Assembly (NCBI RefSeq): GCF_016827605.1
Contig: NZ_JAEPJQ010000001.1
Span: 186,001-250,000 of the forward strand
Direction: 5' to 3'
Length of the DNA stretch: 64,000 bases
Source of the DNA: Hyunsoonleella ulvae
Lineage (GTDB): Bacteria > Bacteroidota > Bacteroidia > Flavobacteriales > Flavobacteriaceae
Shown here one piece after another: positions 3,253 to 29,503 of the stretch. Each line of letters starts with the position of its first letter. The first letter of the stretch is position 1. The position numbers and the translations under genes were made by a program. The notes beneath the pieces were generated by a model, which saw only the letters and a program-made list of their open reading frames with translations, made no database searches and had not been told where the DNA came from.

Positions 3253-3492
3253 ATGAGAAAAATAGGTTCTTACATGGTCTTTTTTGGACTCTTCGCAATT
3301 GTTTTGAATTTCATAGATAGAGTACCAACCATATTAATGTGGATATACAGCTGGGGAGATACTACAGCTTGGATAATAAAAATAGCATTAGTCGTTGTAG
3401 GAGCCATACTCTTTATAATGGGAGGAAAAGCTGAAGGGACTGAAACTGGAAACCCTACTAGTGATAATGCTGCTCCAAAAGCAGAAGAATAA
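3253..3492 (+). CDS. Small membrane protein, 79 residues
   Basis: The start at the ATG giving MRKIGSYMVFFG is preferred. The frame is open further upstream, but that part overlaps the end of the amidohydrolase gene and has no membrane or signal character. Two hydrophobic segments are visible, at about residues 5-20 and 42-60, separated by a WIYSWGDTTAW stretch rich in tryptophan. The C-terminus is polar and low in complexity. No family is recognised with certainty; similar short proteins are common in Flavobacteriaceae. It lies 58 bases after the kynurenine cluster and may be independent of it. Confidence 0.7.
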   Translation: MRKIGSYMVFFGLFAIVLNFIDRVPTILMWIYSWGDTTAWIIKIALVVVGAILFIMGGKAEGTETGNPTSDNAAPKAEE

Positions 3493-3557
3493 TAATCGTA
3501 CTTTTTAGTGATTACCCTAAATTTGTTTTCTATTTTTAGAACTCAAACAGGTAACTT

Positions 3558-4208
3558 ATGCATTTTATTCCTGAAGATTTAGATGATTATGTTGTGGCAC
3601 ACTCTGAAAATGAGCCTGAATTACTACAACAACTTACAAGAGAAACTTACCAGAAAATTTTACAGCCACGCATGTTAAGTGGTCCATACCAAGGAAGGGT
3701 TTTAAGTATGATATCTAAACTGGTACATCCAAAAAATATTTTAGAAATTGGAACATATACTGGCTATTCAGCCTTATGCTTAGCAGAAGGTATGCAACCT
3801 GATGGCATATTACATACTATTGACATAAATGAGGAGTTAGTAGATTTCCAGAGGAAGTACTTTGATTTGTCTGAATACGGTTCCCGTATTCATCAACATT
3901 TAGGAAATGCTTTGGATATTATTCCCAGTTTAGATGTAACTTTTGATTTGGTATTTATTGACGCAGATAAAGAAAACTATTCCAATTATTTCAACATTGT
4001 GATAGATAAATTGAGTTCTGGAGGTATTATTTTATCTGATAATGTACTTTGGAGTGGTAAGGTTTTAAATACTTTATTTAAAAAAGAAGACACTTCTACT
4101 CCAGCACTAATTGCATATAACAAACTTTTAAAAGAAGATAAAAGGGTAGAAACGGTGGTTTTACCTATTAGAGATGGGTTAACCATAAGTAGAAAAAAGG
4201 ATTCTTAA
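3558..4208 (+). CDS. O-methyltransferase (class I SAM-dependent, catechol/caffeoyl-CoA type)
   Basis: The 216-residue protein shows SAM motif I in LEIGTYTGYSALCLAEG, an acidic residue after the second strand (HTIDINEE), and the FDLVFIDADKENY segment with the Asp that binds the divalent metal in the cation-dependent O-methyltransferase family. The second metal site is in SDNVLWSG. Bacterial members methylate catechol-like hydroxyls, but the natural substrate is usually unknown. The stop codon is 12 bases before the next gene, so the two are probably co-transcribed. It is not an obvious part of the kynurenine route. Confidence 0.9.
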   Translation: MHFIPEDLDDYVVAHSENEPELLQQLTRETYQKILQPRMLSGPYQGRVLSMISKLVHPKNILEIGTYTGYSALCLAEGMQPDGILHTIDINEELVDFQRKYFDLSEYGSRIHQHLGNALDIIPSLDVTFDLVFIDADKENYSNYFNIVIDKLSSGGIILSDNVLWSGKVLNTLFKKEDTSTPALIAYNKLLKEDKRVETVVLPIRDGLTISRKKDS

Positions 4209-4220
4209 ACACAAAAAGAT

Positions 4221-5006
4221 ATGACTTTATTAAATTTTAAGCTATTAAGCGCAGTTTTAATTATTTCTAGTTTTAGCGTAGTAAATTCTCAATCTACTTC
4301 ATCACTTTTCAGTTATGAAGAATATGTGGACACCCAAGGAGATACCTTAAAATACAGACAGTTAGTTTGTGATTATGCTGATAACACTAAAAAATATCCG
4401 TTAGTAATTTTTTTACACGGAATGGGTGAGCGAGGTAGTAATAATGAAGCCCAGTTAAAATGGGGTGTTAGAAATTTTGCAACAAGCGAAAATATGTCTC
4501 AAAACCCATGTATATTAATTGCGCCGCAGTGTCCTGATAATAGTGTATGGGGAAATTATAATAGAAATATGGAACTTCAAGCTCAACCTACTAAACCAAT
4601 GCAGCTTCTTAGGGAACTTATAAATGAAGTGATAAAAAAATCTCCCGTAGACCCTAATAGAATATATATTACAGGACTTTCAATGGGCGGTTTTGGAACC
4701 TATGATGCCATTTCAAGGTATCCAGACTTATTTGCTGCAGCCGTGCCTGTTTGCGGAGGAGGCGATATTTCTAAAGCTAAAGACTTTGCGCATATACCAA
4801 TTTGGATATTTCATGGAGCAATAGATAGTATAGTAAACCCCATTTTATCAGTAAACATGCTAAATGCCCTAACAGAAGCTGGTGCTACACCCGGTTACAC
4901 ACAATATCCAGAAGTGGGGCACTTTTCTTGGATTATGTCATATAGCGACAAAAATATGATGACTTGGCTATTTAAGCAACGTAAAAAAACCAAAGTTACA
5001 GATTAA
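4221..5006 (+). CDS. Secreted alpha/beta hydrolase (prolyl oligopeptidase / PHB-depolymerase-like esterase)
   Basis: The 261-residue protein begins with a signal peptide ending near NSQS. The alpha/beta hydrolase elements are visible in order: the oxyanion region LVIFLHGMGERG, the nucleophile elbow GLSMGGFG with its Ser, the acidic residue in FHGAIDSIV, and the catalytic His in EVGHFSW. This pattern matches the predicted peptidases and carbohydrate or feruloyl-type esterases related to PHB depolymerase. It acts in the periplasm or outside the cell. Substrate is unknown; the adjacent methyltransferase gives no clear hint. Confidence 0.85.
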   Translation: MTLLNFKLLSAVLIISSFSVVNSQSTSSLFSYEEYVDTQGDTLKYRQLVCDYADNTKKYPLVIFLHGMGERGSNNEAQLKWGVRNFATSENMSQNPCILIAPQCPDNSVWGNYNRNMELQAQPTKPMQLLRELINEVIKKSPVDPNRIYITGLSMGGFGTYDAISRYPDLFAAAVPVCGGGDISKAKDFAHIPIWIFHGAIDSIVNPILSVNMLNALTEAGATPGYTQYPEVGHFSWIMSYSDKNMMTWLFKQRKKTKVTD

Positions 5007-5027
5007 GAGTAAAAGAGTATAACTTAA

Positions 5028-5315
5028 TTAAAATTTTCGTTTTACTGATCCTGTGAAGTCCTCCAAATCTTCTTTTACCTTATCTATTTCTTGCTTCACA
5101 TCTTTGGTTACACTGGTATCTATACCATTATTTTCGGCAGTTTTTGTGATTTCTTGCTTTATATCGTTAGTGGCATCTTTTAGCGTACGCATACCTTTAC
5201 CCAAACCACGTGCAATTTCAGGTAACTTATCTGCACCAAACACCATGATTGCTATAAAAAGGATAAAAGCGATTTCCGTACCGCTAATAAATAAAAATGT
5301 TGAAGTTTGTATCAC
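5028..5315 (-). CDS. tatA: Twin-arginine translocase subunit TatA/TatE
   Basis: TatA forms the translocation pore for folded proteins in the inner membrane. The protein has a short N-terminal membrane segment (FISGTEIAFILFIAIMVFG), the hinge ADKLPEIARGLGKGMRTLKDA, and a charged amphipathic tail. The GTG start gives 95 residues. A longer ATG version would begin inside the upstream gene's terminator hairpin and add 22 unrelated residues, so it is rejected. A TATATTTG promoter box lies just 4 bases before the GTG, implying a very short leader. TatC is not in the window. Confidence 0.88.
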   Translation of the reverse strand: MIQTSTFLFISGTEIAFILFIAIMVFGADKLPEIARGLGKGMRTLKDATNDIKQEITKTAENNGIDTSVTKDVKQEIDKVKEDLEDFTGSVKRKF

Positions 5316-5318
5316 AGT

Positions 5319-5326
5319 ACAAATAT
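5319..5326 (-). promoter_or_regulatory. Probable tatA promoter -7 box (TATATTTG)
   Basis: It matches the Bacteroidota TAnnTTTG box. Its place only 4 bases before the GTG start implies a leaderless or nearly leaderless mRNA. Confidence 0.5.
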
Positions 5327-5346
5327 AGTAAGTTGTTTTGAGAGCA

Positions 5347-5378
5347 TAAAAAAAAGCCGATTTTAAAAAAATCGGCTT
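5347..5378 (-). terminator. Rho-independent terminator of the M1 peptidase gene
   Basis: An 11-base-pair stem (AAGCCGATTTT with AAAATCGGCTT) and a 3-base loop are followed on the minus strand by a run of T. It lies 20 bases after the M1 stop codon. Confidence 0.85.
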
Positions 5379-5398
5379 CATAGGAATAATTAAATTGT

Positions 5399-7702
5399 TT
5401 ACCCTTTTATACCTTGCTTAAAGTTTTCAAATTCTCCTTTCTCTTCTTTTTTAGGCCAATAATTATTTGTTGTATCAACATCAGCAGTTTCCTCATTAGG
5501 ATCAATGGCAATGTTTACAATCTCCTTATCACTTGCTATTGCTTTACTTACTTCATTATCATTAAGCCTCCATATTTGTGCTGGGTATTTTTCTGTTTTC
5601 TTAGTACCATCAGCGTAGGTATACTCCACAATAATAGGCATTACTAAACCTCCTGGTTTTTCAAAGGTAATATTGTAAAAATACTTTGGTGCTTTTATAT
5701 GTTGACGCTCTTCCTCCGAGAAATTATCCATTAAATATTCTTTTACTGTTTTAACGTCTTTAGGGTTCTGATCTAACATTGATTTCTTAAAATCCTCACT
5801 TCCCTCTTCTACCATATATACTAAAGGTCTTAATTGTTTTTTCTTAATCCCCCTTTCTTTCATTATATTCTTCATGTAAGCATTAGGTTCAGAGGATACA
5901 TAGTACTTTTTAACATCCTTAAGCCCTATATCTACCCAATCAGTGGTATAAAACCAACCTCTCCAATACCAATCTAAATCAAAAGCTGAAGCATCTTCCA
6001 TTGTTCTGAAGAAATCTTCTGGTGTTGGGTGTTTAAACATCCATCTGTTAGCATATTCCTTAAATGCATAATCAAATAAATCTCTGCCCATAACCGTTTC
6101 TCTTAAAATATTTAGAGCTGTAGCCGGCTTGCCATATGCATTATTCCCAAACTGGTAGGTGTTAATACCTTTGGTCATAATTGGTGCTATGTAATCTTGA
6201 TTTCCACTCATGTAAGGCACAATCTTTTTTGCAGGCCCTCTTCTATGAGGAAATTCTGTATCACCCTCAGCTAACGCATCAGGATAAGCCTTAGCAAAAT
6301 CTACTTGAGCCACGTACTGCACAAAACTGTTTAAGCCTTCGTCCATCCATGTCCACTGGCGCTCGTCACTATTTACAATCATTGGAAAAAAGTTATGCCC
6401 TACCTCATGGATAATAACTCCCATCATACCATAGCGTACACGATCACTATACGTACCATCTTCCTTAGGGCGTCCATAGTTCCAACAAATCATAGGATAC
6501 TCCATACCTTGTTGCTTTGCATGAACAGAAATTGCTTTATGGTAAGGATAATCAAACGTCATTCTAGAATACGTTTTTAAAGTACTAGCCACCGCTTTTG
6601 TAGACCAGTCCTCCCAAAGTGGATTACCCTCTTTTGGGTACATTGAAACTGCCATTACATCCTTATCTCCTATTTTAACCACCATCATGTCCCAAATAAA
6701 TTTACGTGAGGTTGCAAAACCAAAATCTCTAACATTCTCTGCTTTTAATTTCCAAGTTTTTGTTGCTGTTGAAAATCCTTTTTCTGCAGCCTCAGCTTCT
6801 TCTTGGGTAACAATTAAAACAGGTTCATCATACGATTTTTTTGCTTGCTCATAACGTTCCATCATTGTTTTAGAAAACACTTCTTCTCTATTTGTCAACA
6901 CACCTGTACCATCTAAAATATGATCTGCCGGAACTGTAATATTAACTTCATAATCCCCAAAGGCTAATGCAAACTCGTCACGCCCCCAGAATTGTGAGTT
7001 TTGCCATCCCTCAACATCACTATATACTGCCATTCTTGGAAAAAACTGAGCAATAACATAGGCTCTGTTCCCATCTTTAGGGAAAAATTCATACCCTGAA
7101 CGACCTTCTTGCTTTACATGGTCATTAATATTGTACCACCACTTTACTGAAAATGAGAACTTATCTCCTGTTGTCATAGGTTTAGGGAGTTCAATACGCA
7201 TCATGGTGCGGTTAATTATGTGAGGTAGAGGCTTTCCATCAACATCTATAACAGCTTCAATATTAAAACCACCATCAAAAGGTGCCGCTAAATAATCATC
7301 TGTAAATTGGCTTGGATACATTACCGGTTCTACCTCATTCCCTTCTATCAAGGGACTCTTAGAATCTTTAGCCCTAACATTCTGGTCTAATTGCACCCAA
7401 AGATATTTTAATACATCTGGGGAATTATTAGTATAAGTAATGGTTTCAAAACCTGATAATTTTGCATTTTTATCATCTAAAACAATATCCATTTTGTAAT
7501 CGGCCTTTTGCTGGTAGTAAGCATGTCCTGGCGCACCAGATGCAGCTCTGTAGACGTTTGGCGTAGAAAACTCATCATAAAGCTGCTTGAATTTATTAGT
7601 ATTGGTATGCCCTTTTTTAGGAGCTGAATTTTCTTTCTCTTGTGCACAAATACCTGAAGAAATAAAAATTAAAGACAGAAAATAATACAAAAGATGTTTC
7701 AT
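5399..7702 (-). CDS. Secreted M1-family metallopeptidase
   Basis: This is a zinc aminopeptidase-type enzyme of about 767 residues, with a signal peptide ending at ICAQ. With the start at MKHLLYYF, the HEVGH zinc motif is at residues 432-436 and the third ligand Glu455 follows at the family's usual spacing of 18 residues. The N-terminal region (about 60-280) looks like the M1 beta-saddle domain. The GAMEN-type substrate motif is not obvious; HAKQQGMEYPMI is the matching place. Such proteins probably trim peptides in the periplasm. A three-codon-longer ATG start (to 7711) is possible, but it would put extra residues before the signal peptide. Confidence 0.9.
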   Translation of the reverse strand: MKHLLYYFLSLIFISSGICAQEKENSAPKKGHTNTNKFKQLYDEFSTPNVYRAASGAPGHAYYQQKADYKMDIVLDDKNAKLSGFETITYTNNSPDVLKYLWVQLDQNVRAKDSKSPLIEGNEVEPVMYPSQFTDDYLAAPFDGGFNIEAVIDVDGKPLPHIINRTMMRIELPKPMTTGDKFSFSVKWWYNINDHVKQEGRSGYEFFPKDGNRAYVIAQFFPRMAVYSDVEGWQNSQFWGRDEFALAFGDYEVNITVPADHILDGTGVLTNREEVFSKTMMERYEQAKKSYDEPVLIVTQEEAEAAEKGFSTATKTWKLKAENVRDFGFATSRKFIWDMMVVKIGDKDVMAVSMYPKEGNPLWEDWSTKAVASTLKTYSRMTFDYPYHKAISVHAKQQGMEYPMICWNYGRPKEDGTYSDRVRYGMMGVIIHEVGHNFFPMIVNSDERQWTWMDEGLNSFVQYVAQVDFAKAYPDALAEGDTEFPHRRGPAKKIVPYMSGNQDYIAPIMTKGINTYQFGNNAYGKPATALNILRETVMGRDLFDYAFKEYANRWMFKHPTPEDFFRTMEDASAFDLDWYWRGWFYTTDWVDIGLKDVKKYYVSSEPNAYMKNIMKERGIKKKQLRPLVYMVEEGSEDFKKSMLDQNPKDVKTVKEYLMDNFSEEERQHIKAPKYFYNITFEKPGGLVMPIIVEYTYADGTKKTEKYPAQIWRLNDNEVSKAIASDKEIVNIAIDPNEETADVDTTNNYWPKKEEKGEFENFKQGIKG

Positions 7703-21233: not shown

Positions 21234-22379
21234 ATGACACCTAAACTATATTGCCTTAGCATACTTACGCTACTACTCTTTTCTTGTGGACAAAACACAA
21301 AAAACAACAGTGATTTTGCTGATTTTGGTTATGATTCTGAAACCCTATTAGATGAAAATAACACCTCAGAGTTTGAGGAACAAAAACCCAAAATATCCCA
21401 TAGCCTAAAGGGATATAAAGTTATGAGCAAACAATTTGGGATACCTGTAGGTATTATGCCAATACCAAAGGACTGGAAGGTAAAGCGTAAAAACAACGAA
21501 GGTATTTTATTTGAATCTTCCAGTGACATTAAGGTCTATGGTGAACGTTTTATTTCTTACTTCTTCTCTAACAACCAACAACTTAATTACATTACACAAC
21601 AGAGTGGCAGGCCAGTAGCACCAGTAAAAAACTTAAATAGAGTACTTCAAGAAGATATTTTGCCGCATGCTGAAGCCCAAGGTGTAAAATTAACAAATCA
21701 GTTCTCGCTACCAGCCCTATCCCAATTTGATAAACGCTTTGACAGTTACCTGTTTAAAGGGATACCCGAAAACAAACAATTTCAATGCCTCGCTACAGAG
21801 TGGATAGATAAAAAGGGAATAAAATCAATAGGTATTATCCGATATTTCACAAACCATTATCCAACTACTGGAGGTATGGATTGGGGATATACCTTAAATG
21901 CTATGGAAGCTCCTATTCATGAATATGAAAGTGCTAAAAAAGCATTCATCAACGCGTTAGTGCATTTTGAAATTAACCCACAATGGGTACAAAGTAACAA
22001 TACCTTTTATTCACAAAAATCAAGACAAGGTGCAGCACAACACCAACAACGTATGGCAGCAATCAACGCACAAGGTCAAGCCGCTAGAAATCTTGGTAAC
22101 ACCTACAGCTCTATATCTGACAGTAGTTTTGAAAGCTGGCAACGTAGAAATAACATGAATAACGCTGGACATTCCAAATCCATAAATAATGGTATATGGG
22201 AACGCACAACGGTATCTAGCCCAAATACTGGACAACAGTATTATGTAGAAGGGCAAAATAATTATTACTGGATGAACCAGAATAATGAATATGTGGGAAC
22301 CGATAATTCACTTTACAACCCAAACATAGATAATTCTATGAACCAACAAGACTGGACACAATACAATATTGAAAACTAA
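21234..22379 (+). CDS. Predicted lipoprotein, 381 residues, unknown function
   Basis: The signal sequence ends at the lipobox LLFSCGQN. Residues about 60-250 form a mixed domain with GIPVGIMPIPKDWKVKRKN and TEWIDKKGIKSIGIIRYF, which looks like a stress-sensing or LpqN-like alpha/beta fold, but I do not recognise it. The C-terminal third is rich in Gln, Asn and Tyr (QQRMAAINAQGQAARNLGNTYSSISDSS, then several YW/NN repeats) and is probably extended. The gene is led by the 30-base repeat shared with the next gene. Confidence 0.7.
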   Translation: MTPKLYCLSILTLLLFSCGQNTKNNSDFADFGYDSETLLDENNTSEFEEQKPKISHSLKGYKVMSKQFGIPVGIMPIPKDWKVKRKNNEGILFESSSDIKVYGERFISYFFSNNQQLNYITQQSGRPVAPVKNLNRVLQEDILPHAEAQGVKLTNQFSLPALSQFDKRFDSYLFKGIPENKQFQCLATEWIDKKGIKSIGIIRYFTNHYPTTGGMDWGYTLNAMEAPIHEYESAKKAFINALVHFEINPQWVQSNNTFYSQKSRQGAAQHQQRMAAINAQGQAARNLGNTYSSISDSSFESWQRRNNMNNAGHSKSINNGIWERTTVSSPNTGQQYYVEGQNNYYWMNQNNEYVGTDNSLYNPNIDNSMNQQDWTQYNIEN

Positions 22380-22381
22380 TA

Positions 22382-22411
22382 ATGATGACATTTTAAAAGT
22401 ACTTCGATGTA
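22382..22411 (+). repeat. 30-base intergenic repeat, copy 2
   Basis: It starts 2 bases after the stop of the preceding gene and lies 34 bases before the next ATG, nearly the same distance as copy 1 has to its gene. Confidence 0.7.
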
Positions 22412-22445
22412 CCAATAAACAAAAAACTATTAAAGCAAAACATCT

Positions 22446-23234
22446 ATGAAAGCATTTAAGTTATACAGCCTTTTAGCCATTGTTATTTTATTAACCTCAT
22501 GCAGTTCGAATGATGATAATGATAACGCTAATAGTCTCGTAGGATTTACAACACAAGATAATTGTCCTGAATTACCCATAGGTGCAACCTCTGCGTATTG
22601 GGAATACGCCAAAGGCAATCCCATTCCCTTAAATCAAATACCAGTACTGCAAAATCCTCAAGCACCATTTTCCTATGCTCATAGCAACAGGAATCTACCT
22701 CCGCTAACCTTAACACCCCCTCAAGGTTATCAAGCTATTGATTATATAAATCCCAATACCAATCCTTTTGGGGTAAATATGATTAGGAACGACGGTGCAG
22801 TGGTATGGAGATACGTTCCCATTTCAACGTATCCTGTTAATTTTTCAGACTCAAATATTTTAGACACTGAAGTAAATAATGTTACCAATGCTTTTGGTTT
22901 CAATGCTAATTATAATACACTTTGCGAAGCAACTCCAATAGTATTTAGTGAAAATGGTATCACAAGAATTTTTAGAGCCAGAATGATAGAATTTAACAAT
23001 ACAACAGCACTCATTTGGATCGCAGCAACTTATGTGGAAAGCTTGTTTACGGTAAGTGTAGCTTCATCAGTATCTGCGGGACCTAGTAATGAATATGCTA
23101 ATCTAGTTATGGATATATTTTTACCTATGAGTTTTCAATTATATCCATCAGGGAGCAGTCCATTATCAGATAGAGATAATGATGGAACACCAGATATTTT
23201 TGATCCCGAGCCTGATAATCCTAATGTAAAATAA
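22446..23234 (+). CDS. Predicted surface lipoprotein, 262 residues
   Basis: A lipobox LLTSCSSNDDNDN, acidic after the cysteine, suggests export to the cell surface. The body (about 35-245) is beta-rich with no family I can name; it contains AYWEYAKGNPIPLNQIPVL and a stretch MDIFLPMSFQLYPSG. The end, LSDRDNDGTPDIFDPEPDNP, is a thrombospondin type-3-like calcium-binding repeat of the DxDxDGxxD form, frequent in secreted flavobacterial proteins. It is not followed by a type IX sorting domain. The gene is probably co-transcribed with the next, 22 bases on. Confidence 0.72.
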   Translation: MKAFKLYSLLAIVILLTSCSSNDDNDNANSLVGFTTQDNCPELPIGATSAYWEYAKGNPIPLNQIPVLQNPQAPFSYAHSNRNLPPLTLTPPQGYQAIDYINPNTNPFGVNMIRNDGAVVWRYVPISTYPVNFSDSNILDTEVNNVTNAFGFNANYNTLCEATPIVFSENGITRIFRARMIEFNNTTALIWIAATYVESLFTVSVASSVSAGPSNEYANLVMDIFLPMSFQLYPSGSSPLSDRDNDGTPDIFDPEPDNPNVK

Positions 23235-23256
23235 AAAACAACTCGTACTTATAATT

Positions 23257-24312
23257 ATGAAAACAAATAATCATTTTAACAACCTTTTTATAACTCTTTT
23301 AGTCATCTCTTTTTTTACGATTAGCTGTAGTAAAAATGATGAGAGTGAAAAAATGGAAGAAGACACAACCGGCCTAAACGTTTATGTTGCTGGTACAAAA
23401 TCTATAGATGCGTTAACATCAGTTGCTGAATTGTGGGTAAATAACACCCCAAGAAATATAGCTAAAAGTAACGGTACTGGAACTGCCAGTTCTGTATTTG
23501 TTGCAGGTAACGATGTGTATGTTACCGGGCACGAATCTAACGGTTCACTTAATATTGCTACTGTGTGGAAAAATGGTACAGCAACAACACTTACAGATGG
23601 CAGTAAAAACTCCACATCTGCATCAATCTTTGTAGATAACGGCGACGTTTATGTTGCTGGCGATGAAATAGAAAATATAGGGTTTAATGCTAGGGTATGG
23701 AAAAACGGCATTGCAACCGATTTGTCAGATGGTTTTCAATCCAGAGCAACTTCTGTTTTTGTATCAAATGGCAATGTTTATGCCGCAGGTTGGCAATACA
23801 TACAGTCGGAATTTAGAGCCGTAGTTTGGAAAAATGGTATCGCAACACAACTTACTGATGGAACTAAATTTGCAACTGCTAGTTCTGTATATGTAGATGG
23901 CGACGATGTTTATGTTGGAGGCTCTGAGTACAACACTTCTACAGACAAAATATTAATTGCTAAAATTTGGAAAAACGGAGTACCTATAGATCTAACAGAT
24001 GGGACAAATAGTGCTTTAGTTGAAGCTGTTTTAATTTCAGGAAATGATGTATACGCTGTTGGTATGGAAAATCTGGGCAATCAATTTGAAGACGCTGCTG
24101 CCATGTGGAAAAATGGAGTCATTACATATCTAACCGATGGTAATAACTATGCAAGAGCACATTCAATTTTTATACATGAAAATGATGTATATGTAGCAGG
24201 TACTGAAAGAGGAGAAAATAACGAAGCAGCAACGGTTTGGAAAAATGGCGTTGCCACAAATTTAACCGATGGTAAAAATTTTGCCAGAGCACTTTCTATT
24301 TTTGTTAAATAA
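23257..24312 (+). CDS. Lipoprotein with seven WKNG repeats, probable beta-propeller
   Basis: After the lipobox FFTISCSKNDE the rest is made of seven repeats of about 45 residues with the pattern VWKNGxATxLTDG, Ala/Ser-rich, SIFVxxxDVYVAGxE. The first starts with the variant LWVNNTPRNIA, the others with WKNG. The chain begins with LNVYVAGTKS and ends with LSIFVK, so the last blade seems to be completed by the N-terminal strand, as in a closed seven-bladed propeller. It probably binds a partner or a polysaccharide at the surface. No catalytic motif is seen. Confidence 0.85.
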   Translation: MKTNNHFNNLFITLLVISFFTISCSKNDESEKMEEDTTGLNVYVAGTKSIDALTSVAELWVNNTPRNIAKSNGTGTASSVFVAGNDVYVTGHESNGSLNIATVWKNGTATTLTDGSKNSTSASIFVDNGDVYVAGDEIENIGFNARVWKNGIATDLSDGFQSRATSVFVSNGNVYAAGWQYIQSEFRAVVWKNGIATQLTDGTKFATASSVYVDGDDVYVGGSEYNTSTDKILIAKIWKNGVPIDLTDGTNSALVEAVLISGNDVYAVGMENLGNQFEDAAAMWKNGVITYLTDGNNYARAHSIFIHENDVYVAGTERGENNEAATVWKNGVATNLTDGKNFARALSIFVK

Positions 24313-24368
24313 AAAAAGTAAAATATGAAGTTGATAATCGAAATAATAGTCATTTAATAGCCTAGTAT

Positions 24369-24398
24369 TTGTAACAATATGAAATAATTGTATCTTTC
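24369..24398 (+). promoter_or_regulatory. Promoter of the sigma/TPR/CHAT module
   Basis: TTG at 24369-24371, 19 bases, then TATCTTTC at 24391-24398, close to the flavobacterial consensus TTG-N17-19-TAnnTTTG. It lies 16 bases before the ATG of the sigma factor gene. Confidence 0.6.
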
Positions 24399-24414
24399 CT
24401 CTAGCTATTAATTC

Positions 24415-24981
24415 ATGGGGAAAAAAATACACTTATTGAGTCAGTCTCAACTAGTAGATGCTATCAAAGAAAATGATGCTAACATCTTGAAAGCGCTATA
24501 TACATCCAATTATCCTAAAATAGAAGCTTTGGTGTTAAAAAACAGTGGTTCTTCTGCACACGCAAAAGATATTTATCAAGACGCATTTATTACCGTTTGG
24601 ACACATATAAAACAAAATAAATTTGCACCACAAAACGATAGTGCCCTACAAGGGTATTTATACAGAATATGTAAAAACAAGTGGACAGATGTTCTAAGAT
24701 CTAAAGCCTTTAGGGATGTAAAACCATTGAATACTGATACTATAAAAACAGTGAAATCTGAAGAAACATATGATACGCTAGAAGATAAAAAGCTAAAACT
24801 AACTATGGCTGCTTTTGAAAACCTAGGGCAACCGTGCAAACAACTCCTTAAAACATTTTATTTTGAAAAGAAATCATTAAAAGAAATCTCTAAAGAATTA
24901 AACATAGAAGAAACCACTGCTCGTAATAAAAAATACAGGTGCATGCAAAAATTAAGAGCTGTGGTTTTAGCCTCAAAATAG
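24415..24981 (+). CDS. ECF-type RNA polymerase sigma-70 factor
   Basis: At 188 residues this is a two-domain extracytoplasmic-function-like sigma factor. Region 2 is in YQDAFITVWTHIKQNK and LQGYLYRICKNKWTDVLRS; region 4, with its helix-turn-helix, is in QPCKQLLKTFYFEKKSLKEISKELNIEETTARNKKYRCMQKLR. It directs polymerase to its own set of promoters. The next two genes, separated by only 6 and about 50 bases, encode a membrane TPR protein and a CHAT protein, so its likely task is to control this module, possibly under membrane-protein control. Confidence 0.92.
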   Translation: MGKKIHLLSQSQLVDAIKENDANILKALYTSNYPKIEALVLKNSGSSAHAKDIYQDAFITVWTHIKQNKFAPQNDSALQGYLYRICKNKWTDVLRSKAFRDVKPLNTDTIKTVKSEETYDTLEDKKLKLTMAAFENLGQPCKQLLKTFYFEKKSLKEISKELNIEETTARNKKYRCMQKLRAVVLASK

Positions 24982-24987
24982 CAAACA

Positions 24988-25728
24988 TTGAAAAAGAATA
25001 ACAACATATCAGAAGAATTACTAGAAACCATAGAGCGTTACTTAAACGGTACTCTAAGCACCCTAGAGCGTGAAGACTTCAATAGACTTTTAGATCTTGA
25101 TGAAGATTTTAAAGCACAGGTTGAAGATGTTCGTACTATGCTTTTTGGTATAGAAGCCCAGTCTTTAAAAGAACAGTTAAATGAATTTCATGAGGAAATC
25201 CCACAAACAAAGGCTGAACCAACCCCAGAACAAAAAGTTCGTTTTTTAAGGTATAGCAAAATTGCCGCTGCAGCTGCTATTATTATTGCGGTTGGAAGTA
25301 TATGGTTTTTTAGTGGATCTCCAAACGAAACACTTTATGCAAAGTACTTTAAACCAGATCCTGGCTTACCAACAACTATGAGCAGTACCAATAATTTTGA
25401 ATTTTATGATGCTATGGTAAGCTACAAACATGGTGACTATAAAATAGCCATTGATAAATGGAACATTTTAAACAAACAAAAACCCGAAAACGATACCCTA
25501 AACTACTTTTTGGGTGTTGCCCACCTGGCTGCTAAAAACGCTGAAGAAGCCATACCTTACTTAGAGCGCGCAAGTGAAGCGAAAGATGGTTTTGAATTTT
25601 TAAGTGATGCCTATTTCTACTTAGGACTTGCATATATTAAAGAAGGGAACCTTGAGCTTGCAAAAAAGAATCTAGGTTTAAGTAATAGTGAAATAAGTAA
25701 AACTGTATTAAAGGAACTTGATAACTAA
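24988..25728 (+). CDS. Membrane-anchored TPR protein, likely partner of the sigma factor
   Basis: It begins at a TTG codon 6 bases after the sigma factor stop; no ATG fits the conserved N-terminus. Residues 1-85 are cytoplasmic, acidic and helical (LLETIERYLNGTLSTLEREDF), the kind of region anti-sigma factors use. A membrane segment is at 91-108 (KIAAAAAIIIAVGSIWFF). Residues about 130-240 carry TPR-like helix pairs (YKIAIDKWNILNKQKPENDTLNYFLGVAHLAA). Its place and topology suggest an anti-sigma factor or anchor, but it has no zinc-binding HxxxCxxC motif. Function is inferred only. Confidence 0.78.
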   Translation: MKKNNNISEELLETIERYLNGTLSTLEREDFNRLLDLDEDFKAQVEDVRTMLFGIEAQSLKEQLNEFHEEIPQTKAEPTPEQKVRFLRYSKIAAAAAIIIAVGSIWFFSGSPNETLYAKYFKPDPGLPTTMSSTNNFEFYDAMVSYKHGDYKIAIDKWNILNKQKPENDTLNYFLGVAHLAAKNAEEAIPYLERASEAKDGFEFLSDAYFYLGLAYIKEGNLELAKKNLGLSNSEISKTVLKELDN

Positions 25729-25782
25729 TTAAAAAGCAAAAGGTTTTCCTCTAAAGAAAGAACATGTTGCTTCATAACATTG

Positions 25783-28641
25783 ATGAAACATATCAAAATC
25801 ATATTAACCTTTTTTACTATTTTTTGCGTTTTACCAATTGATGCACAATCTCCTGAAAAAGATGTGCTTTTAAAAAGTTATGATTTGGCCGATAGCCTAT
25901 ATAGGTCTAGAGATTATAAAGGTTCTGAAACTACACTTCATCAACTCGTAAAATCATTTAACAACAACCATCAAAACCAAATACACCTAAAGTATAAAAC
26001 CTACAATCTGCTAGGTTTGGTAAATGTTAAATCCCAACAGCTAGATAGCTCAAATTACTATCTCAAAAAATCTTTAATATACATTGAAAACCCTGCCTTT
26101 AAAGATGAAGACAAAGCATATAATTTGGGCCTCACGAAAAACAGCATAGCGTTAAATTTTTTCAATACAGGACACGTAGAGCTTTCCATTTCTACATTAC
26201 ATGAGGCCATAAAACACCTCCACAATTATACTGCTCAAGTAAAGGATGAAGAAAAAAAGTTGAAAGCTATCAAGAAAAGACTAGCTTGTATTGATAATCT
26301 AGCTGGTTTTTATAGAGGTGTTGGAGATAATGAGCGTGCTATAAATTTAGCAACGTACTCCTACAAGAAAAAACAAAAAATTTTACCTCCTGATGATACT
26401 GCCCTTATTATTTCCCAATTAATTCTTGGGCACCTTCACCTTATTGCTAGAAACTACGATACAGCAGGAAACATAATTGACAAAGGCATCAAAAATATTG
26501 ACAAAATCCCTTTTGCAAAAAGTTACGCATATTTAGTAAGAGCTTCAATATATGAGAATGTAGAAGACTTTAAAAATGCAAAAAAAGTGTATGAGTTATG
26601 TGAAGATGCTTTTAGAGAAAATTTTAATGGCGTATACTCAAACTCGTTTTTAGATGGGCTAGTGGAGATGTCTAATTTTTACACAAAAATTGGAATGCAG
26701 AAAAAGGCATTATCCTTAGCTATGGAAGGCTATAATTTTACACAACAAAACACCTATAAAAATCTGTTGTTAGCATATTACCAAGTACAAAATTTAGCGA
26801 ACGTTTATTTTGGTATAAACGACTATAAAAACGCCATAAAGTATAGTAACGAGGCACTTTCGTTTTTTGAAAAAAGACAATTAAAAATGAATAGTTTGTT
26901 AGATTCTATTCAAAACGAAACAAGAAAACCAATATCGCTTTTAATCAAATCTAAATCAGAATATTTTTTAAAAGACAAGCATACAATTCACAGTTTAGAT
27001 AGTATCTTAAAGCAGACAAAAAAAGCGCTAGATATTTTAGAAAAAAAGAGAACCATCATAAAAAACCCTTCAGATCTTGAAACTCTTCTTTCCGAAAACA
27101 ATGAGCTTATAGATTTTAGAAAACAATTACTTGTAGACCTCTATAACAAAACTAAAAGTGATGATTATTTAACCAAACTCATCAGCCTCCATGAATCTAG
27201 CCTTTATAATAGAATACGATCTAGGTTAAACCTAAAAAAGGTTAGTTTTTCAAATATCCCAAAAACTATAATTGCTAGAGAGCAATTTTTAAAAGACGAG
27301 ATGATTAATGCTTTGAGTGAAACAAGTACATCCATAGAAGCGTTTTTTAAAGCCAACGACCAATGGAATACGTTTTTAGACTCATTAAAGTATCAACATC
27401 CTAAGTATTACAAAATGCGCTATGCCACTTTAGAAGAGCCTTTAGATAGTCTACATAAAAACATACCGCAAAACACATCCATAGTTAGGTATCTTTATAT
27501 AAGAGATACGTTATATACTGCTGTAATAAACAAAACCGATAAAAAACTATTTAAATTAAAAACTAATCATCTAAAAACGCATATTACAACGCTTTCCCAA
27601 GATATACTAGACATAAAAACAACAGCAAACACTTTACATGAGCTTTACAAAGATTTATGGGAACCTATTGCACCCGAAATCACAACTAAAAACATAGTGA
27701 TTATACCAGATAGGGATTTATTTAATTTAAGTTTTGAGAGTTTAACAAGTTCTAAAATCACATCTTTTAAAGAACTCGTTACAAAAAGCTTATTATCAAA
27801 ACACATTATTTCGTATAACTATAGCCTTTTACTCGTAGAACCTTCTAAAACTATTATAGAATACCCTAAAGACTTTATTGCATTTGCCCCTGAATTCAAT
27901 GAGAATATGAAGAAAAAGTACAGTGTTTCCATTAGTGATTCGCTATCAATGGATAAAACATATTTAAGCCTTCTTCCACAGCCATTCAGTGTAGATTTAG
28001 CCAAAGAGTATTCACGCTTATTTGATGGTGACTATTTTATAAATGAAAATGCCTCGAAACAAATCTTTAAAAATGAAGCTAACGAACATAAAATAATACA
28101 CATTGGCACACATGCTGAATCTAATAATGTTTCTCCAGAACTATCGCGTTTAATCTTTGCCAAAAATAGTGAAAGTGATGACAACTCCCTGTATACCTAT
28201 GAAATCTACAATGAAAACTTAAACTCCAACCTTGCTATTTTAACCGCTTGTGAGACTGGTAAACCTACCTACCAAGCAGGAGAAGGTATGATATCATTAG
28301 CACACGCTTTTAATTATGCAGGAAGTGAGAGTATCTTAACTAGTCGTTGGAAAATCGATGAAAAATCTAGTTCACAAATTATTGAGTTTTTCTTCAATAA
28401 TATCAGAAAAGGAATGCCTAAGGATGAAGCTTTACAGGTGGCAAAACTTCATTATTTGTCTCAAGCCGAAGGTAGAACAATAGCCCCTAACTATTGGGCG
28501 GGTTTAGTACTAATTGGCGATACCACTCCAATACATTTACAATCTTCTAAACATGTAATATGGTATTTTGTGATAGCATTACTACTTGCCATAATCACGT
28601 ACTTAATCTTGAAAAGAAAAAAATCAAAGCGCGCTACTTAA
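25783..28641 (+). CDS. TPR-CHAT caspase-like protein, membrane-tethered
   Basis: The 952-residue protein has a signal peptide (to about residue 20, IDAQ), TPR repeats to about residue 380, a long helical linker, then a CHAT domain. The catalytic pair of the caspase-separase family is present: His777 in HIGTHAE and Cys823 in LTACETGK. The motifs GEGMISLAHAFNYAGSESILTSRWKID and NYWAGLVLIGD also fit. A single membrane segment near the end (WYFVIALLLAIITYLIL) tethers it, with the protease domain outside the cytoplasm. A start at ATG 25783 is preferred to the adjoining TTG. It is the third gene after the sigma factor. Substrate unknown. Confidence 0.92.
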   Translation: MKHIKIILTFFTIFCVLPIDAQSPEKDVLLKSYDLADSLYRSRDYKGSETTLHQLVKSFNNNHQNQIHLKYKTYNLLGLVNVKSQQLDSSNYYLKKSLIYIENPAFKDEDKAYNLGLTKNSIALNFFNTGHVELSISTLHEAIKHLHNYTAQVKDEEKKLKAIKKRLACIDNLAGFYRGVGDNERAINLATYSYKKKQKILPPDDTALIISQLILGHLHLIARNYDTAGNIIDKGIKNIDKIPFAKSYAYLVRASIYENVEDFKNAKKVYELCEDAFRENFNGVYSNSFLDGLVEMSNFYTKIGMQKKALSLAMEGYNFTQQNTYKNLLLAYYQVQNLANVYFGINDYKNAIKYSNEALSFFEKRQLKMNSLLDSIQNETRKPISLLIKSKSEYFLKDKHTIHSLDSILKQTKKALDILEKKRTIIKNPSDLETLLSENNELIDFRKQLLVDLYNKTKSDDYLTKLISLHESSLYNRIRSRLNLKKVSFSNIPKTIIAREQFLKDEMINALSETSTSIEAFFKANDQWNTFLDSLKYQHPKYYKMRYATLEEPLDSLHKNIPQNTSIVRYLYIRDTLYTAVINKTDKKLFKLKTNHLKTHITTLSQDILDIKTTANTLHELYKDLWEPIAPEITTKNIVIIPDRDLFNLSFESLTSSKITSFKELVTKSLLSKHIISYNYSLLLVEPSKTIIEYPKDFIAFAPEFNENMKKKYSVSISDSLSMDKTYLSLLPQPFSVDLAKEYSRLFDGDYFINENASKQIFKNEANEHKIIHIGTHAESNNVSPELSRLIFAKNSESDDNSLYTYEIYNENLNSNLAILTACETGKPTYQAGEGMISLAHAFNYAGSESILTSRWKIDEKSSSQIIEFFFNNIRKGMPKDEALQVAKLHYLSQAEGRTIAPNYWAGLVLIGDTTPIHLQSSKHVIWYFVIALLLAIITYLILKRKKSKRAT

Positions 28642-29503
28642 ATCTTACAAACTTGGAGTCGAAAAACGTGTAATTAGAGACAGGTATAATAGCATCTTTC
28701 TCTAAATGATACCAAGGCGAGTATTTAGTATCTTCTAAATTTTTAACCAAATGTACACTTTGCGCTGGTGTATTTCCTTGAAATAATAAATATATTTTAT
28801 CGCCTTTTGTATTTACAGCTTCATCACAAATCATAACAATATGCCCAGGAGAACCACCTTTAATAAGCATATCTCCCAACTTAAGACTTTTTACATCATT
28901 TATTTTGGGAAGCTCATTATATAAGGACAACGTACCAGAATACATATAGATAAGGTTAAGGTATTTGTAGAAGTTATCTTTAGAGTAATTTGCAGTTGCT
29001 GTTTTTTGAAACCTTACTTTATTTCCATTAATCTTTGGTCTGTAACCCTCAGCGTACTTTTTCCAAGAGCAATAATGGCCACTTGTAAAGTTAAACCCAA
29101 TTTCATTTTTTCTGTTAGTGTCCCAAAGATATTCGCTACGTATTCTAATTAATGCATCTGCACACTGTTGTAATCCGTTTTTAGGCACTGGAATATCCAA
29201 AATTCCAATATGTCCACGTTGCCAAAAGTATTCAGTATCATCATAATTAATAATTTTAGTTCCAAATGGTTTTAACTCGTAGTTTCTCAAATACTCTTGA
29301 AATGAACCCTTTGGATAAGTGACCCTTGTGTATCCTTCAGGTAGATTTACTCTAGACTTAATCGTTAGACTGTCCCTGTTTAAAAGGTCTGTAAATACAT
29401 TAGCAGTTAACACAGTAGCAATACTATTCTGATGAGGCATCATCAACAAGTATGATATCCCAAAAACTAAAACAAAACCCGCAAAAAGTAAAATTTTCTT
29501 CAT
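28634..29503 (-). CDS. DUF4846 domain protein
   Basis: The 289-residue protein has a signal or anchor segment (ILLFAGFVLVFGISYLLMM). It has the conserved DUF4846 features WQRGHIGILDIPVPKNGLQQCADALIRIR and YLWDTNRKNEIGFNFTSGHYCSWKKYAEGYRP, then SPGHIVMICDEAVNTKGDKIYLLFQGNTPAQS near the end. The GHIVMI part with a conserved His recalls NlpC/P60-like folds, but this is not a firm link. It meets the CHAT gene tail to tail with an 8-base overlap, so the two are not co-transcribed. Confidence 0.85.
   Translation of the reverse strand: MKKILLFAGFVLVFGISYLLMMPHQNSIATVLTANVFTDLLNRDSLTIKSRVNLPEGYTRVTYPKGSFQEYLRNYELKPFGTKIINYDDTEYFWQRGHIGILDIPVPKNGLQQCADALIRIRSEYLWDTNRKNEIGFNFTSGHYCSWKKYAEGYRPKINGNKVRFQKTATANYSKDNFYKYLNLIYMYSGTLSLYNELPKINDVKSLKLGDMLIKGGSPGHIVMICDEAVNTKGDKIYLLFQGNTPAQSVHLVKNLEDTKYSPWYHLEKDAIIPVSNYTFFDSKFVRFK

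Follow-up and report, generated by a model that had tools for sequence, protein, structure and literature searches.

A predicted sigma/anti-sigma switch with its own CHAT-family protease in the envelope of Bacteroidota

Introduction

The 64,000-nucleotide stretch of the Hyunsoonleella ulvae genome considered here (the window, in whose numbering coordinates are given unless a locus is named; the host genome comprises 4.06 Mb in 23 contigs) carries three consecutive genes, which encode a sigma factor of the extracytoplasmic function (ECF) type, a membrane protein with tetratricopeptide repeats (TPR) and an exported TPR protein with a caspase-like CHAT domain. In the reading that we favour with moderate confidence, these proteins form a sigma/anti-sigma switch across the membrane that comes with a site-1 protease dedicated to it: the CHAT protein, which would make the first cut in the anti-sigma factor. 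A first-pass annotation of this DNA had already proposed that the CHAT protein cuts the membrane TPR protein to free the sigma factor. To this proposal we add a conserved motif, Met or Arg followed by Gly or Ser, which has decayed in loci without a CHAT gene; the cut and the release themselves are put forward here as predictions.

Gene content and predicted topology

The genes for the sigma factor (188 aa; 24415..24981), the membrane TPR protein (246 aa from a TTG start; 24988..25728) and the TPR-CHAT protein (953 aa from a TTG start, with a likely ATG start at 25783; 25780..28641) follow each other on the forward strand, which also carries all features described below, and the open reading frames are separated by gaps of only 6 bp and then 51 bp. 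The sigma factor matches the NCBIfam model TIGR02937 (E 5.6e-24, 84.6 bits against a cut-off of 42.9) and, over the Pfam cut-offs, both Sigma70_r2 (6.5e-11) and Sigma70_r4 (1.3e-5); region 3 finds no match, which gives the layout of an ECF factor. Upstream, a putative operon promoter (TTTG ... TATCTTT; 24368..24397) fits the pattern that we take to be the housekeeping type of Bacteroidota. The same pattern precedes 39 of 63 related sigma genes, compared with 57 of 400 control stretches from coding sequence and 197 of 1260 shuffled sequences, that is, about 15% in the controls.

The membrane TPR protein is a candidate anti-sigma factor. Its N-terminal part (residues 1–70; 24988..25197), predicted to be cytoplasmic, is helical in an AlphaFold 2 (AF2) model and weakly anti-sigma-like by the profile NF052375. 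It is followed by a single transmembrane segment (residues 92–110; 25261..25317) and a predicted periplasmic TPR domain (25387..25728), which is supported by Pfam TPR matches at residues 146–227 and by matches to TPR folds. For comparison, we collected 161 distinct relatives (180–340 aa, E 1e-22 or better, identical C-termini counted once), leaving out eight distinct proteins as weaker (L075, L088, L089, L094, L098, L105, L111 and L117; L and G numbers denote loci and genomes of our survey). A transmembrane segment is found in 159 of these 161 rows, and Lys and Arg are more common before it than after it in 154. In Foldseek searches, a model of the sigma factor and the TPR protein read through as one fusion gave two separate sets of matches, to TPR proteins and to sigma chains such as 1or7_A.

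In the third protein, a signal-peptide-like N-terminus (25783..25848) precedes a long TPR array, a CHAT domain (residues 618–914; 27631..28521) and a C-terminal transmembrane anchor with a positively charged tail (residues 926–944; 28555..28611). The CHAT domain is recognized by PF12770 (E 2e-37, 129.7 bits against a Pfam cut-off of 24) and by structural matches, and its catalytic dyad, His778 (28111..28113) and Cys824 (28249..28251), is invariant in all 66 aligned CHAT rows, the window included. Likewise, the hydrophobic N-terminus recurs in 64 and the C-terminal segment with its positive tail in all 66 of these rows. The AF2 model of the protein has a mean predicted local distance difference test score (pLDDT) of 81.3 and a predicted template modelling score (pTM) of 0.77, and Foldseek places the TPR-CHAT chains of Craspase first, followed by separase and TPR proteins, and also DdvA.

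All topology calls are based on hydropathy. Together with the charge bias in the relatives, it indicates that both membrane proteins should reside in the inner membrane with their CHAT and TPR domains in the periplasm, and the CHAT domain is predicted to face the periplasm across the relatives. At this level, our results agree with the first-pass annotation, which had described an ECF-like sigma factor, a single-pass TPR protein and an exported, membrane-tethered CHAT protein behind one promoter, and an intact His777-Cys823 pair, a numbering that is valid from the ATG start.

Distribution across Bacteroidota

The three-gene module is widespread in Bacteroidota, beyond this locus. In a first survey, CHAT relatives were present in 20 of 60 related genomes; the CHAT protein of H. 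pacifica is 84% identical to that of the window. In the neighbourhoods that were fetched, sigma and TPR genes lay beside the CHAT gene in tandem, convergent or divergent arrangement, and some neighbourhoods were without them. The sigma-TPR-CHAT run, in which the candidate anti-sigma gene adjoins the ECF sigma gene, is found in 65 of the 80 named loci, with gaps below 100 bp in 60 of the 65.

The association is also evident at the level of genomes. In a survey of 119 genomes from 118 genera of the family, a full-length TPR protein (E 1e-28 or better) is present in 53 of the 57 CHAT-positive genomes (the exceptions being G024, G307, G314 and G376) and in just one of the 62 CHAT-negative genomes, G009 (hand count; Fisher test, 8e-28). 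The threshold was chosen after the table had been seen, and the TPR proteins in the search alignment, A2, had been collected near CHAT genes, so that the TPR searches in both the family and the phylum favour such proteins; the genome-level values leave a gap between E 1e-28 and 1e-11, which argues that this bias is not the whole effect. On the level of individual places and at a maximum distance of 15 kb, 77 of the 82 strong TPR places have a CHAT place nearby and 78 of the 92 CHAT places have a TPR place nearby, which, together with the genome counts, rules out chance adjacency. The 77 pairs comprise 22 on the same strand (20 in close tandem), 25 convergent ones at a distance of about 0.1 kb and 30 divergent ones with 2.9–7.5 kb from the TPR gene to the CHAT domain, and with three orientations, the linkage does not merely reflect inheritance as an operon. 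These counts bear out the strong co-conservation of the genes, the absence of which the first-pass annotation had named as one of the points that would speak against its proposal.

In the phylum as a whole, 48 of 247 genomes have a match to the TPR profile at E 1e-12, of which 42 carry a CHAT protein among the matches listed (hand count). Outside the family, a sigma gene is present in 22 of 60 CHAT neighbourhoods (hand count), which were taken one per genome among the matches listed, were hand-picked rather than random and in some cases end at a contig edge. We had considered that sigma genes might simply be everywhere, which is ruled out by their absence from all 20 control regions, each of 16 kb, that were drawn from 20 of these genomes (Fisher test, 0.0009).

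The host genome itself carries a second module (L041:1593-10513; about 806.6-815.5 kb of G000:C1), in which the TPR and sigma genes diverge from the CHAT gene. Exported-looking proteins of 144, 332 and 651 aa are encoded in between, and beyond the CHAT gene follow a retropepsin-like aspartyl protease (PF13650, E 2.2e-11), whose gene overlaps the CHAT 3' end, and a LuxR-type response regulator. Such an arrangement could also be expected from a reversed wiring, in which the sigma/anti-sigma pair senses by other means and drives the CHAT protein, which would cut some other periplasmic target: the divergent orientation accounts for 30 of the 77 linked cases, and the three intervening proteins in the host genome are placed as regulated genes might be. 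In the window, by contrast, the CHAT gene sits after the sigma gene behind the housekeeping-type promoter pattern, and the anti-sigma motif described below tracks the presence of CHAT, and we regard the reversed wiring as improbable.

Several loci depart from the common organization. The other 15 named loci (L148, L150–L159, L161, L167, L169 and L183) carry a tandem-branch CHAT gene without a sigma-TPR pair directly upstream in the stretch covered; 13 of them are from Aequorivita, and two (L153 and L161) end at a contig edge just upstream. In G304, an Aequorivita-type genome that was examined as a whole, the sigma and TPR genes are on a different contig from the CHAT gene, and loci of this type might serve as a natural experiment on action in trans. 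Elsewhere, one sigma-TPR pair lies amid three CHAT genes (L057:3217-14621), seven named loci hold two CHAT frames each (L133, L149, L165, L168, L187, L188 and L191), and one stretch holds two convergent CHAT genes whose products have no C-terminal transmembrane segment, with no sigma-TPR pair within the stretch (L046:475-5827). Giant CHAT frames of 1789–2214 aa that have no anti-sigma-TPR partner within 15 kb occur in G024, G314, G331, G355 and G383.

A candidate cleavage site and its fate without CHAT

The best-conserved part of the membrane TPR protein is not one of its domains, but residues 111–133, just outside the membrane (mean entropy of 1.12 bits, against 1.57 for the TPR domain, 1.78 for the transmembrane segment and 1.81 for the N-terminus). 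In the window, this part contains the juxtamembrane motif FKPDPGLPTTMS (residues 121–132; 25348..25383), a candidate site of cleavage or recognition by the CHAT protein. In the tandem branch, the motif reads FxPDPGLPTTM-S/G, and Asp124, Gly126, Leu127 and Met131 (codon 25378-25380) are invariant in 44 rows. Other branches have a different sequence there, with an Arg that is mostly followed by Gly or Ser, as in ITRGE, IERGE or TVRGE; this Arg column lies two residues beyond the Met column. Setting aside the four orphans described below, Met or Arg is found in 150 of the remaining 157 TPR proteins, which include rows with a CHAT gene elsewhere in the genome or lost at a contig end, and the next residue is Gly or Ser in 145. 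Specifically, the 80 proteins with Met continue with Ser (53) or Gly (27), and the 70 with Arg continue with Gly (45), Ser (20), Ala (2), Asn, Asp or Thr (1 each). A long, unbranched residue followed by a very small one could resemble the P1–P1' positions of a caspase-like protease substrate, judging by the P1 residues typical of clan CD proteases.

Some CHAT columns were also inspected for a corresponding specificity, and none is counted as evidence. Residue 740 (Leu in the window, 27997..27999; Leu, Ile, Val or Thr in the 66 rows of alignment A5) is a speculative specificity position. This position, column 741 in the numbering of L048, holds Glu in 25 of 26 CHAT proteins with Arg-type partners, whereas 70 of the 71 that have Met-type partners show another residue. 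We did not use this apparent switch, because it is not independent of phylogeny: the tree contains only two Arg-to-Met changes, one of them without a change of the Glu. The latter concerns L062, where a TPR protein of the Arg branch (L062:7755-8486) has an isolated second Met-type motif (TTAMGN) and the CHAT protein (3302-6058) keeps its Glu. Columns 861–867, finally, were tabulated for the P1 position of separase, and nothing is claimed from them.

Four strong TPR genes have no CHAT gene within 15 kb: those of G009 (L244/L308), G311 (L249/L309), G322 (L252/L310) and G378 (L240/L311). These orphan loci are syntenic with the window, as judged by phmmer, with genes for the ApbE-like, 125-aa, 151-aa, NqrF-like and TPR proteins in all four, a sigma gene in two and a CHAT gene in none. 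G009 has no CHAT match anywhere in its genome, and the best CHAT proteins of the other three are 27–34% identical to that of the window, compared with 39–84% inside the branch. In L308, which is from the window's own genus, the TPR gene is directly followed by a 155-aa DUF4846 piece (L308:8158-8625), a junction that would look like the deletion scar of a CHAT gene.

In the orphans, the juxtamembrane motif has decayed. We considered positions with a conservation of at least 90% in the rest of the branch and pooled the four proteins. Changes affect 15 of 28 such sites in the motif, compared with 9 of 88 in the TPR domain (Fisher test, 5e-6, with sites treated as independent) and 5 of 20 in the part made up of the N-terminus and transmembrane segment; Met is lost in three of the four. 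Linked members of the branch have on average 0.26 changes in the 7 motif sites, 0.88 in the 22 TPR sites and 0.21 in the 5 sites of the N-terminus and transmembrane segment. As a control, G304, in which the TPR gene and a branch CHAT gene (47% identity) are on separate contigs, has kept the motif as PDPGLPTTMGT.

The main alternative to cleavage explains the same decay. The CHAT protein could be a sensor or clamp that does not cut, but binds the juxtamembrane motif and thereby alters the hold of the anti-sigma factor on the sigma factor, as in a split version of DdvA (see below), and the motif would then be a docking element. Its loss in the absence of CHAT fits docking as well as cutting, but pure docking would have no need for a His-Cys dyad, which is invariant in all 66 rows, and the single Met or Arg before Gly or Ser has the look of a scissile bond. 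On balance, we find docking without cutting possible but doubtful, and favour cleavage.

The locus as a whole is flanked by ApbE-like and Na+-NQR-like genes, named by resemblance. Immediately downstream, a DUF4846 gene (28634-29503; PF16138, E 3.2e-88) is convergent with the CHAT gene, with an 8-bp overlap at the 3' end of the latter. On the other side of the module, ahead of the sigma gene, positions 21234-24312 encode three exported-looking proteins that have no Pfam match over the cut-off; phmmer detected none of the three in the four orphan loci that are syntenic with the window.

Related systems

Craspase, the type III-E CRISPR system, is nearest to the CHAT protein both by sequence (best match in the PDB, E 0.00095) and by fold. 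In published accounts, its TPR-CHAT protease Csx29 acts on the sigma inhibitor Csx30, which is cut between residues 427 and 429, and deletion of Met427 blocks cutting (PMC10028731, PMC9729208). Both systems feature a TPR-CHAT protein with a His-Cys dyad, and the Craspase protein that is cut is described as an inhibitor of an ECF-like sigma factor (CASP-sigma/RpoE). By these accounts, however, Craspase is an RNA-activated complex with Cas7-11 and its TPR-CHAT protein is soluble, whereas here both partners are predicted membrane proteins, given the export-signal-like N-termini and C-terminal anchors of the CHAT relatives. By analogy, Craspase may have the same logic in soluble form.

This resemblance also raises the possibility that the module serves defence or cell death in the manner of Craspase or gasdermin, with the sigma factor as an accessory; the first-pass annotation had alluded to such a role. 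Besides the order of the structural matches, the description of DdvS in a 2025 review as controlling an antiphage island points in this direction, and control of CBASS/CRISPR genes is taken as a feature of DdvA-type anti-sigma factors. Against it, none of seven locus proteins matched a Cas family over the Pfam cut-off, and PADLOC, run on nine locus proteins, found no Cas match: the TPR and CHAT proteins and the six flanking proteins were unmatched, and the sigma factor had one weak CARF match (E 0.0066). Furthermore, the locus lies between ApbE-like and Na+-NQR-like genes, and the CHAT protein is predicted to be periplasmic, not cytosolic. The link to defence thus finds no support among the proteins scanned, and we consider it very improbable.

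A second close relative is DdvA of Myxococcus xanthus, the partner of DdvS. Its PDB entries (8ROT, 8RW5) bear the title of a transmembrane anti-sigma factor and the molecule name of a CHAT-domain protein, and as far as these records go, it resembles our module in combining an ECF sigma factor with a transmembrane anti-sigma factor, a candidate one in our case, and with a CHAT domain linked to the latter. It has His and Cys at aligned places and was found by Foldseek with the CHAT model of the window, although the sequence similarity to the window's CHAT protein is marginal (E 0.69). In DdvA, however, anti-sigma factor and CHAT domain are one chain of 991 residues, whereas here they are two membrane proteins with a candidate cut site on the anti-sigma factor. 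CHAT proteins are also reported in the genetic context of ECF54 sigma factors (PMC8999054), which are described there as working without an anti-sigma factor, whereas in our module a candidate anti-sigma factor is the central link.

Stepwise cutting of a membrane anti-sigma factor, first by one protease and then by others, is described for RseA-DegS-RseP and RsiW (PMC10028731). The proposed mechanism would be similar, but its site-1 protease would be a dedicated, co-inherited cysteine protease of the caspase-like type, and the juxtamembrane position of the RseA-like site-1 cut has a candidate counterpart here, proposed from conservation. Human separase structures, finally, match the CHAT model, but separase is a eukaryotic cohesin protease and is not known to have a membrane anchor. 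It is reported to cut after Arg (EXXR).

The first-pass annotation knew of no described system with exactly this logic. For the Bacteroidota sigma-TPR-CHAT module, we likewise found no published description in a search mostly of titles and abstracts, which did not extend to the main 2021 ECF classification, but DdvA and Craspase, as far as they are documented in the sources above, come close. From its sequence features, the module would best be regarded as a variant of the sigma–anti-sigma–CHAT theme already known from these two, in which the two-protein membrane form with a candidate cut site is new.

Discussion

In the mechanism that we propose, the TPR protein would use its cytoplasmic N-terminus to tether the ECF sigma factor to the inner membrane, and we infer this anti-sigma role from its sequence and gene context. 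The C-terminal helix of the TPR-CHAT protein would hold it in this membrane as well, with the caspase/separase-like domain predicted to be periplasmic. A signal might be sensed either by the CHAT protein, through its long TPR array, or by the anti-sigma factor, through its TPR domain in the periplasm. In response, the CHAT domain would cut the anti-sigma factor about 20 residues outside the membrane, probably after Met131 (after Arg in other branches) and before Ser or Gly, as conservation and decay of the motif suggest. The remaining stub could then be finished by RseP-type and cytoplasmic proteases, which would release the sigma factor; the genome encodes one M50 protease (PF02163 match) that is available as a site-2 protease.

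Several observations weigh against this reading. As to the anti-sigma factor, the topology fits the anti-sigma-like cytoplasmic part of the first-pass annotation, but the profile support is weak: NF052375 matches residues 17–108 with E 6.2e-5 and 23.1 bits, far under its cut-off of 100, an anti-sigma profile matches at E 1e-3 in 5 of the 24 rows of A2, and the contact with the sigma factor in the fusion model is not firm (pTM 0.63). In the CHAT model, the active-site loops are below pLDDT 50. The candidate cut site is Lys in 3 of the 157 non-orphan TPR proteins and neither Met, Arg nor Lys at the two columns examined in 4, and another Craspase is cited with a cut after Leu407 rather than Met. 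The orphan set comprises four loci of a single branch; L240 among them retains the Met, and changes at as many as 4 of the 7 motif sites also occur in a linked protein. Two of the orphan loci have no sigma gene and the sigma genes of the other two match Pfam weakly or not at all, so that part of the motif decay may reflect general relaxed selection, and the 5 of 20 changed sites in the N-terminus and transmembrane segment point the same way as the changes in the motif. With respect to co-inheritance, 14 of the 92 CHAT places in the family have no TPR partner within 15 kb, among them 5 in frames of 1789–2214 aa and 6 in frames of 1058–1137 aa; 84 of the 126 CHAT-positive genomes of the phylum, among the matches listed, have no TPR protein at E 1e-12, and linkage to sigma genes is weaker outside the family.

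Beyond this locus, we would give about even chances to a broader generalization, namely that Bacteroidota possess a large family of envelope sigma switches, with a co-inherited, periplasmic caspase/separase-like site-1 protease, Met-Ser/Gly and Arg-Gly/Ser cut sites, genomes with multiple copies and three gene orders, of which Craspase and DdvA would represent other sigma–CHAT branches.

The concrete prediction of a cut site is what this analysis adds to the first-pass annotation. If the proposed mechanism is true, ordinary bacteria would employ caspase-like proteases beyond the cytoplasm, as site-1 proteases in signal transduction, and many uncharacterised CHAT proteins would gain a substrate together with a testable cut site. 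Likewise, a class of TPR anti-sigma factors would be explained, and Craspase and DdvA would find their place in a wider family that ties TPR-CHAT proteins to the control of sigma factors.

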